Shown here: positions 33,820 to 64,000 of the stretch, piece by piece
Position numbering within the stretch: the first letter of the stretch is position 1
Layout: every line of letters begins with the position of its first letter
Source of the DNA: Synergistaceae bacterium
GTDB taxonomy: Bacteria > Synergistota > Synergistia > Synergistales > Aminithiophilaceae
Assembly (NCBI GenBank): GCA_016756725.1
Contig: JAESII010000006.1
Location: forward strand, 108,688 to 172,687
Direction: 5' to 3'
DNA: 64,000 bases
Notes under the pieces: model-generated
Seen by the model: the letters and a program-made list of their open reading frames with translations, nothing else
The model's database searches: none
What the model was told of the DNA's origin: nothing
Translations under genes and position numbers: made by a program

Positions 33820-33855
33820 GCAAACAAGGGAGAGAGCCCGGCTCTCTCCCTTGTT
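33820..33855 (-). terminator. Hairpin terminator after hppA
   Basis: A long perfect inverted repeat with 16-base arms (33823-33838 and 33840-33855) lies about 40 bases past the hppA stop. On the minus strand it is followed by a short TTTG. It should end the hppA message before dnaG. Confidence 0.7.
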
Positions 33856-40761: not shown

Positions 40762-42695
<1,934 letters not shown>

Positions 42696-42732: not shown

Positions 42733-42759
42733 TTAGCACTCATTCGACCTGAGTGCTAG
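42733..42759 (-). promoter_or_regulatory. CIRCE operator upstream of groS
   Basis: The inverted repeat TTAGCACTC-N9-GAGTGCTAG matches the CIRCE consensus with one terminal mismatch. It is located just downstream of the predicted transcription start and about 40 bases before groS, the usual position for HrcA repression. Confidence 0.95.
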
Positions 42760-42771
42760 CGATCGAGATTG

Positions 42772-42800
42772 ATATTAACGTCAACAGCGCCTGACCTCAA
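42772..42800 (-). promoter_or_regulatory. Sigma-70 promoter for groS-groL
   Basis: On the minus strand, TTGAGG (42795-42800) and TAATAT (42772-42777) are 17 bases apart. The predicted start near 42765 places CIRCE at about +6 to +32. Confidence 0.75.
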
Positions 42801-42913
42801 CTCCCCTGAAAGCTGATAGGAGGCAAATAAGGTCGATTTTAGCCTCTGATCTCTTTTTTTCTTCTTTTAGGACCGCCTGGGGCCCTCCTTTCTGCTTTCG
42901 GCCTGCTCCAAAG

Positions 42914-42969
42914 TGAGGGTATGACGAAGAGGCCGCGCCTCCCGGCGCGACCTCTTCGTCATACCCTCA
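42914..42969 (-). terminator. 26-bp hairpin with GNRA loop after tsaD
   Basis: Arms at 42914-42939 and 42944-42969 pair over 26 bp on the minus strand with a single G-U pair, which would be a C-A mismatch on the plus strand. The 4-base loop reads GGGA, a GNRA-type tetraloop. It begins 9 bases after the tsaD stop. No T-run follows, so it may act as a Rho-dependent boundary or a 3'-stabilising structure rather than an intrinsic terminator. Confidence 0.65.
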
Positions 42970-42978
42970 GCGCTGACT

Positions 42979-43995
42979 TCACTGCGGAGCCAGAGGCCAG
43001 GACGGATCGGGACTGAGGAGCAGATCGGAGCGGATACCCCGCTTCCAGTTGCTGTAGCCGGCGGCAGCGATCATGACGGCGTTGTCCGTGCAGAGATCGC
43101 GGGGAGGGATGTAGCTCTTCCACTCACGGGAAGCGGTCATGCGGGCCCGCAGGCCGCTGTTGGCCGCCACCCCCCCTGAAAGGGCTACGGAGCGGATGCC
43201 CGTGGCCATGACGGCGAGGCGTACCTTGACCATGAGGGCATTCAGGGCCGCCTCCTGGAAGGAAGCGCAGATATCCTCCAGAGGCAGAGGCTCACCCTCC
43301 CTGAATCGCTTCAGAAGGTGAAGGACAGCCGTCTTGAGGCCACTGAAGCTGAATTCGACAGCATCGCTCTCCCTGAGGGGAACAGGAAGGGGGAAGGCCC
43401 TGGGGTTTCCCTGGGAGGCCAGGGCATCGACGGCGGGACCGCCCGGGTAGGGCAGCCCCAGGAGTTTGGCCACCTTGTCGTAGGCCTCGCCGACGGCGTC
43501 GTCACGGGTCATGCCGAGCATGCGGTAGTCTCCGAAGGCCCGGACATGGACGATTTCGGTGTGGCCTCCGGAGACGATGAGACAGAGGAAGGGAGGCGCC
43601 AGGTCGTCATGAACGACAACGTTGGCGAAAAGATGCCCCTCCAGGTGATTGACGCCGACGAGAGGGAGCTCCCAGGCCTGTGAGAGGGCCTTGGCGGCCA
43701 TGACGCCGACAAGGAGCGAGCCCATCAGTCCCGGTCCGGCCGTGACGGCCAGCAGGGACAGCTCCCGGGCGGGGTTGGCGATGCCGCCCCGGCTGAGGAC
43801 CTCCCTCAGGAGGGGAATGAGTACCCGCTGGTGCTCCCGCGAGGCCACCTCGGGGATGACGCCGCCCCAAGGGGCATGGAGGTCGGCCTGGCTGGAGAGG
43901 ACTGTGGCGACGACCTTTCTCTGTCCCTCAAGGAGGGCGATGGAGGTGTCGTCGCAGCTGCTCTCGATGGCCAGAGTGAGAAAGGGGCGAGACAC
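42979..43995 (-). CDS. tsaD: tRNA threonylcarbamoyladenosine transferase TsaD
   Basis: This 338-residue ASKHA-fold enzyme transfers threonylcarbamoyl to A37 of ANN-decoding tRNAs together with TsaB and TsaE, which are not in this window. The motif LAIESSCDDTSIALL, the Fe-binding NHLEGHLFA and IVSGGHTEIV, and the C-terminal SGGVAANSGLR with CTDNAVMIA are present. The GTG at 43995 follows the zinc-ribbon stop by 2 bases and has a GGGGGG run upstream. The ATG-less 12-codon extension was rejected. Confidence 0.94.
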   Translation of the reverse strand: MSRPFLTLAIESSCDDTSIALLEGQRKVVATVLSSQADLHAPWGGVIPEVASREHQRVLIPLLREVLSRGGIANPARELSLLAVTAGPGLMGSLLVGVMAAKALSQAWELPLVGVNHLEGHLFANVVVHDDLAPPFLCLIVSGGHTEIVHVRAFGDYRMLGMTRDDAVGEAYDKVAKLLGLPYPGGPAVDALASQGNPRAFPLPVPLRESDAVEFSFSGLKTAVLHLLKRFREGEPLPLEDICASFQEAALNALMVKVRLAVMATGIRSVALSGGVAANSGLRARMTASREWKSYIPPRDLCTDNAVMIAAAGYSNWKRGIRSDLLLSPDPSWPLAPQ

Positions 43996-43997
43996 CG

Positions 43998-44177
43998 TCA
44001 GTGCCCCCCGCAGCCGCTGCAGCCCCGACAATCTCCGCTGCAGGAACGAAAGCGGCGACGCTCTCCTTCAAGGTGGACGAGGACCCTGCCGCGGCAGTGG
44101 GGACATTTGGAGGCATGGCTCTCGGAGGCGAAGACGGCCCCGCAGGAGGAGCAGCGATAGCGGTGCACGGGGCTCAC
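43998..44177 (-). CDS. FmdB-like small zinc-ribbon protein
   Basis: This 59-residue protein starts SPVHRYRCSSCGAVF and has a second CPHC pair (cysteines 9, 12, 25 and 28), followed by a cysteine-glycine tail CSGDCRGCSGCGGH. That layout matches the FmdB/YflB-like regulatory zinc-ribbon family. GTG at 44177 overlaps the preceding stop by 4 bases (GTGA), and the gene ends 2 bases before tsaD. An ATG five codons upstream is an alternative start. Its function is unknown. Confidence 0.72.
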   Translation of the reverse strand: MSPVHRYRCSSCGAVFASESHASKCPHCRGRVLVHLEGERRRFRSCSGDCRGCSGCGGH

Positions 44178-63608: not shown

Positions 63609-64000
63609 TTATGTAATCTTGATTGTCTTCAAAAATTCCGCGTTCGTCGCCGTGTGCTTGATCTTGCCGATGATCAGGTTGAGCACTTCGGCTTCGTCGA
63701 GACTGGCGATGCGCCGGCGGAGGAACCAGATTCGGGAGAGTTCCTCCTCGCTGAGAAGAAGTTCTTCACGGCGGGTTCCGGACCGTCCGATGTCAACGGC
63801 GGGGAAGATCCGCTGTTCGGCCAGTTTGCGTGAGAGGTGGACCTCCATGTTGCCCGTCCCCTTGAATTCCTCGTAGATGACCTCGTCCATACGGCTTCCC
63901 GTATCGACAAGAGCTGTGCCGATGATGGTGAGGCTCCCCCCCTGCTCGATGTTGCGGGCCGCCCCGAAGAAGCGCTTGGGGAAATAGAGGGCCGCCGGAT
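63609..64000 (-). CDS. rho: Transcription termination factor Rho (C-terminal part, cut by window edge)
   Basis: The last 130 residues of Rho are visible, running off the right edge. They include [58 protein letters not shown] and [12 protein letters not shown], which are the Q-loop/R-loop and C-terminal parts of the hexameric RNA helicase. The C-terminus ends in KTIKIT, near the usual length. The N-terminal RNA-binding domain is outside the window. No terminator separates it from the next gene. Confidence 0.96.

Follow-up and report, generated by a model that had tools for sequence, protein, structure and literature searches.

The hairpin of 26 base pairs downstream of tsaD in this Synergistaceae genome is probably a U-poor intrinsic terminator, which would end the tsaD transcript before the CIRCE-controlled groESL promoter and would thereby insulate the two; we assign a probability of about 0.58 to this reading. 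In its favour speak the placement of similar hairpins in the same genome, the occurrence of the class in two other genomes of the genus (G001 and G003), a pyrimidine bias of the 3' arms, weak RNA-DNA hybrids, U-tailed hairpins in the corresponding spacers of other genomes, and the hairpin TtsaD of Mycobacterium tuberculosis. The tsaD hairpin is a genuine structure and one member of a genus-wide class of long gene-end hairpins. Its position and its class point to RNA 3' ends, and the hairpins of the class most likely end transcripts without the usual U-run. The probable U-poor terminator would be a variant of an already known kind; further attention is deserved by the pyrimidine tract hidden in the stems of the class and by the way in which perfect palindromes are replaced from species to species. 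Stopping of bacterial polymerases at hairpins without a U-run is disputed, and the evidence considered here comes from mycobacteria and Streptomyces. A second, unrelated phylum, which seemingly relies on very long hairpins with a hidden C/U tract, would be a fresh test set, and there are two complete genomes in the genus, which has been little studied. A literature search of limited depth found no paper on terminators of Synergistota, which is weak evidence of absence.

The hairpin and its genomic context

The source assembly comprises 2.31 Mb and is 83% complete; the nearest relatives of its TsaD are Synergistota. In the window, i.e. the whole stretch of 64,000 nucleotides that was analysed, the argument concerns the following features:

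42979..44031, minus strand: tsaD (family model), with its stop codon 9 nt upstream of the hairpin
42914..42969, minus strand: 26-pair hairpin (inverted-repeat listing, RNA fold)
42923..42932, minus strand: pyrimidine-rich stretch in the 3' arm, positions 8-17 from the loop (hybrid and composition calculation)
42909..42917, minus strand: second minimum of hybrid strength, -8.3 kcal/mol, positions 23-31 from the loop (calculated)
42772..42800, minus strand: sigma-A-type promoter, probably of groESL (alignment, and read from the sequence)
42733..42759, no strand: CIRCE operator (HrcA-type heat-shock control); pattern match, 0 expected by chance
42405..42695, minus strand: groES (family model)
40762..42393, minus strand: groEL (family model)

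The two arms of the hairpin (42914-42939 and 42944-42969) form 26 positions, 25 of which are Watson-Crick pairs. The odd pair is C42933/A42950 on the plus strand, which corresponds to G-U in the minus-strand RNA. In the minus-strand reading, the 5' arm (42969-42944) is followed by the loop GGGA (42943-42940) and the 3' arm (42939-42914). The inverted-repeat listing and the fold agree with the original prediction, which had described a 26-bp hairpin with a GGGA loop on the minus strand and a single G-U pair equivalent to C/A on the other strand. The minus-strand RNA folds with -58.8 kcal/mol (z -9.6), and the plus-strand fold (-51.8 kcal/mol, z -7.7) is also strong, being 7 kcal/mol weaker; in both cases, none of 200 shuffles was as good. 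Among the 12 inverted repeats of the window the hairpin ranks first: Longer arms (28 nt) occur in a single repeat, which overlaps itself and has 71% complementarity; the near-perfect repeat that comes next has 16 bp. The second near-perfect hairpin of the window (33823-33855) has a stem of 15-16 bp, is located between two minus-strand ORFs and has no T-run.

With respect to canonical terminators, a stable GC-rich stem-loop is found shortly after the stop codon, but the U-run directly after the stem is missing. The 8 nt 3' of the stem on the minus strand, CTTTGGAG, contain three T. The earlier statement that the hairpin has no proper U-run, unlike U-tailed terminators nearby, is correct; U-tailed terminators with short stems are present in the window, three of them after minus-strand genes. 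The terminator scan of the window, which needs 5 T in 8 nt, does not list the tsaD hairpin, and this suggests that terminator finders requiring a U-run miss such sites. For well-studied polymerases, three U in 8 nt are a weak signal. By the definition given in the accessible part of PMC8269248, where sequences are U-rich from 3 U, the hairpin is a borderline case of a U-less end; in an excerpt of PMC13289151 the limit is fewer than 4 U in 8 nt, reckoned backwards from where the RNA end was mapped. Work cited in the available section of PMC5335608 reports that a mycobacterial polymerase needed a U-tract in vitro, which counts against the terminator reading.

The groESL promoter is TTGAGG-17-TAATAT, with the -35 box at 42800-42795 and the -10 box at 42777-42772, and 113 nt separate the end of the hairpin from the -35 box. 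According to the alignment, TTGAG and TAATAT are unchanged in two genomes of the same genus. The CIRCE operator follows directly after the promoter, which does not appear in the list produced by the scan of the window. At the right end of the window, a rho gene on the minus strand (about 63618-64000) crosses the border.

A similarity search with E-values up to 10 found one copy of the hairpin in its genome. Hairpin form and intergenic place would suit a repeated mobile element of REP or MITE type, but such a repeat family should offer several similar copies. Moreover, the hairpin has no match among the phage records, and the hairpins of the class share their composition, whereas no common sequence was recognised by eye. 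We regard a mobile element as highly improbable. Short matches of at most 42 nt were found in 23 of 100 relatives besides the own genome. At the curated threshold, Rfam gave no match in the window; a relaxed run at the hairpin produced sub-threshold matches, mostly to microRNA models, which were discarded as a generic effect of long stems.

Long hairpins at gene ends in the genus

In 464 kb of the own genome, in stretches which share 88 bases with the window, 20 inverted repeats of score 16 or more were found, compared with 0, 0, and 0 repeats in three Markov resamples of the same length. Two of them are inside predicted genes. The other 18 are intergenic, and each of these lies within 38 nt of a stop codon; 11 are located between co-directional genes, 7 between convergent and none between divergent ones. 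For this census, genes were called by a custom codon-usage caller and not by a standard program; repeats were searched ungapped, which misses bulged stems such as the hairpin after tsaD in G002 and G003. A sample of 400 kb from G001 gave 18 repeats (12 at gene ends, 5 elsewhere between genes, 1 inside a gene), and 400 kb from G003 gave 21 (9 at gene ends, 5 elsewhere between genes, 7 inside predicted genes). Both samples contain one divergent case; that of G003, the only one in its sample, is an imperfect palindrome of 33 positions (L212:1762-1831). If the three genomes are pooled, 39 of 59 repeats, or 39 of the 49 intergenic ones, are placed at gene ends; G002 was left out of the three-genome pools, because it is 99.3% identical to G003 over the sampled part. 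Thus, the gene-end pattern has no exception among the intergenic repeats of the own genome, and it is weaker in G001 and G003, where the gene caller may also err. One repeat of G003 (L214:3253), called intragenic, sits 30 nt after the stop of an ortholog. The longest stem of the class has 31 pairs.

Repeats of score 18 or more number 15 in the 464 kb of the own genome and 13 in 400 kb each of G001 and G003. Pooled sequence from five other genera of the order contains 3 such repeats in 400 kb, and none was present in 404 kb around tsaD from outside the phylum, where the loci are a non-random sample. To judge from parts of the literature, repeats with short spacers and arms of at least 13 bp are scarce in E. 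coli (PMC6060812), and across bacteria perfect repeats are most frequent 50-80 bp downstream of stop codons (PMC13155455); the main text of the latter study makes no mention of Synergistota.

The perfection of the arms could also originate at the DNA level: Template switching during replication would perfect imperfect repeats and make length and perfection a by-product, or the palindromes might act as cruciforms. In agreement with this view, 37 of the 49 intergenic repeats are perfect, mismatches affect 16 of 1045 pairs, and G-U pairs appear to be fewer than selection on RNA alone would give. In addition, 10 of the 59 long repeats lie inside predicted genes, and in none of the four genus genomes does an SbcD exceed the family cut-off; SbcCD is a palindrome nuclease. 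However, the position of all 18 intergenic repeats of the own genome just after stop codons indicates a transcript-related function, the hairpins of G002 and G003 differ mostly by single changes, and in genome G016, which also has no SbcD over the cut-off, repeats of score 16 or more are absent from the 80 kb examined. These findings make a DNA-level origin quite unlikely. An SbcD over the cut-off is present in several other genera of the order. Loss of SbcD is an uncertain explanation for the long palindromes.

The mismatches within the stems have a bearing on a further claim, namely that the single G-U pair indicates selection for RNA structure on the minus strand. Among intergenic stems of known direction (three genomes pooled), we counted 5 G-U, 3 A-C, and 1 other mismatch. 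Neither type clearly prevails, and the plus strand folds strongly as well, so that the G-U pair has little weight as evidence and the claim could not be upheld. The loop had been assigned to the GNRA type, which holds for GGGA, and the hairpin at this site in G002 and G003 also possesses a GNRA loop (GAAA). GNRA loops do not characterise the class: Among 13 stems with four-base loops and known direction, the tsaD hairpin is the only one with such a loop, and between convergent genes it occurs on one strand in 2 of 9 four-base-loop stems.

A perfect duplex of more than 20 bp is a plausible substrate of RNase III, and a cut in the 26-pair duplex would part tsaD from the downstream RNA. The enzyme is present in the three other genus genomes but was not found in the source assembly, which is only 83% complete. 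As 7 of the 18 hairpins lie between convergent genes, where there is nothing to part within one transcript, and as cleavage needs no pyrimidine bias on one side of the stem, such a processing site is even less probable than the DNA-level origin.

The hidden pyrimidine tract

In the own genome, 5 or more T in the next 8 nt were found at none of 18 gene ends with stems of at least 20 pairs, versus 9 of 30 with stems of 10-12 pairs. The corresponding numbers are 2 of 18 versus 3 of 18 for G001, and 0 of 10 versus 2 of 16 for G003. Pooling the three genomes gave 2 of 46 versus 14 of 64 (Fisher p 0.012), where a hairpin between convergent genes is counted twice. Long stems go with missing U-runs, yet the short stems of the genus are often without them, too.

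Instead of following the stem, pyrimidines are concentrated in its 3' arm. At positions 8-17 of this arm, they form the majority in 33 of the 35 gene-end stems with at least 18 pairs, and the remaining 2 tie (own genome 15/15, G001 11/11, G003 7/9; sign test 4e-8). As a control, long repeats not assigned to a gene end were analysed: 10 of 15 also have a pyrimidine majority. The bias is hence not exclusive to gene ends, although some controls may be gene ends missed by the caller. In the 12 U-tailed short-stem terminators of the own genome, most T occur from about position 11 on. For RNA-DNA hybrids in the own genome, the mean calculated strength reaches its minimum (-10.4) in 9-mers that begin at positions 9-11, compared to -13.5 (sd 2.4) as the background of random 9-mers. 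Two minima are present in the tsaD hairpin. The first one (-8.4 kcal/mol) covers positions 12-20 and starts within the pyrimidine-rich stretch; the second one spans the stem base and the short CTTTG behind it.

We infer that polymerase stops at the hairpin, at one of these two places. After polymerase has left tsaD, the GC-rich inner 8-10 pairs would fold, while the RNA-DNA hybrid covers the pyrimidine-rich CCUCUUCGUC inside the 3' arm; this hybrid would be weak, and the transcript might be released there. If polymerase continues, release could take place at the second weak hybrid, at the stem base, once all 26 pairs have formed. Being an almost perfect palindrome, the element may also act on polymerases arriving from the other side. 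A stop inside the 3' arm leaves the outer pairs without partners; therefore, that half of the model does not explain their perfection. The pyrimidine side bias fits a release signal better than a nuclease barrier, an RNase III site or a cruciform; alternatively, it could be a relic of older U-tailed terminators.

The main rival to the terminator reading is trimming of Rho-ended transcripts. In this case, Rho would end transcription further downstream, and 3'-to-5' exonucleases would shorten the RNA as far as the hairpin, by which the tsaD mRNA would be protected. The missing U-run and the extreme stability fit such a barrier, Rho is present in all four genus genomes, and Rho-ended transcripts of E. 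coli have GC-rich hairpins without a U-tract, as described in excerpts of PMC13289151 and PMC8269248. A barrier needs no pyrimidines in the 3' arm, however, and nearly all gene-end stems have them. The sequence downstream was also inspected: Behind the tsaD hairpin, the next 100 nt are rich in A (A 0.36, C 0.22, G 0.26) and not C-rich and G-poor, and 16 hairpins pooled show no clear downstream excess of C (C 0.31, G 0.29; 2 more had too little sequence to be scored). In favour of trimming, one of these 16, L179:6814, precedes C-rich, G-poor sequence (C 0.58, G 0.14). We consider trimming unlikely, though the least unlikely of the alternatives.

The terminator reading can be compared with several known systems. 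In M. tuberculosis, the I-shaped, U-less hairpin TtsaD is situated between tsaD and groES and lowers reporter expression in vivo, as stated in the available part of PMC5335608. The hairpin studied here is likewise downstream of tsaD and upstream of groES, and its three U in 8 nt place it at the border of lacking a U-trail; its function is predicted. Two differences emerge from the same part of PMC5335608: TtsaD is inactive in reverse orientation, and that text describes for it neither a hidden pyrimidine tract nor perfect stems of 20-30 bp, which are features here. In Streptomyces, structured ends lacking U are numerous (PMC8269248), and its hairpins are the longest of the species compared (PMC12207403), both according to portions of these papers. 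The very stable, U-poor hairpins at mapped 3' ends of S. clavuligerus (excerpts of PMC8269248) and the long stable ones of Streptomyces (excerpts of PMC12207403), likewise in a GC-rich genome, resemble those of the genus, whereas the ends were measured there and are predicted here. Moreover, the part of PMC8269248 considered describes its U-lacking class as devoid of A- and U-tracts; here, the folded stem itself contains a C/U tract. Bidirectional intrinsic terminators, which consist of an A-tract, a GC stem and a U-tract, share with the class the purine tract on one side, the pyrimidine tract on the other and the position between convergent genes, but here both tracts are inside the stem, which pairs up to another 14 bp. 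Canonical terminators of the same genome have in common with the class the place after stop codons and a similar distance from loop to pyrimidine tract; they differ by their shorter stem and a true U-run outside of it.

tsaD-groES spacers and replacement of hairpins between species

From 61 genomes, 58 tsaD loci of the order were collected; G009 (no match), G032 (weak match), and G013 (tsaD cut by a contig end) were dropped. In 42 of the 58 loci, groES or CIRCE is found just downstream of tsaD, and the neighbourhood of tsaD and groES is thus common. The order tsaD-CIRCE-groES is widely kept in Synergistota, though some genomes have groES without a CIRCE recognised by the pattern used. An ungapped scan detected a hairpin in 14 of these 42 spacers, among which G002 and G003 are both counted. 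Six of these hairpins count as U-tailed, with at least 5 T among 8 nt at or behind the stem base, and eight do not; 5 of the 6 U-tailed ones lie within 50 nt of the tsaD stop. The same scan found no hairpin in 28 of the 42 spacers, and these include the closest relative G001, whose spacer folds with a z of -0.88. In general, therefore, the site can do without a terminator, which counts against the terminator reading. The spacers of G002 and G003 contain a long, slightly bulged hairpin with the GAAA loop further down the spacer, which is not alignable with the tsaD hairpin of the source genome. As bulged stems escape ungapped scans, only another, shorter hairpin was scored for these two genomes.

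For 8 hairpins of the own genome, the ortholog of the neighbouring gene lies within the sampled stretches of other genus genomes, so that a comparison was possible. In 4 of the 8 cases, another species has a stem of 16 or more pairs and different sequence close behind the ortholog; at L183:5431, all species possess perfect stems of 21 to 24 pairs, whose sequences differ. The tsaD hairpin is the fifth case, owing to the bulged hairpin of G002 and G003, and has no counterpart in G001. The remaining three offer a shorter hairpin, no hairpin, or, in one genome, a hairpin at a distance of 144 nt. Orthologous hairpins have no sequence in common that could be aligned, which precludes a base-by-base comparison of the arms for covariation. 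For intrinsic terminators of Bacillus cereus, compensatory change has been published, according to the available part of PMC5381666.

Based on these observations, a more general proposal can be put forward tentatively, and we rate it as rather doubtful: The genus might end many transcripts by "palindrome-buried" terminators, in which a mixed C/U release tract is contained in the 3' arm of a perfect palindrome of 18-31 bp. Release would occur within the palindrome, and the outer arms would be kept perfect by a separate force, either a bidirectional function or palindrome-perfecting DNA repair. Between species, such elements would be replaced wholesale, while place and perfection persist.

Of 21 hairpins compared between G002 and G003, 5 differ: four by one base, and one by two outer bases plus a one-base gap; an arm-wide replacement was not seen among the 21. 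G002 and G003, which are treated as different species, have 99.3% identity across 380 kb aligned.
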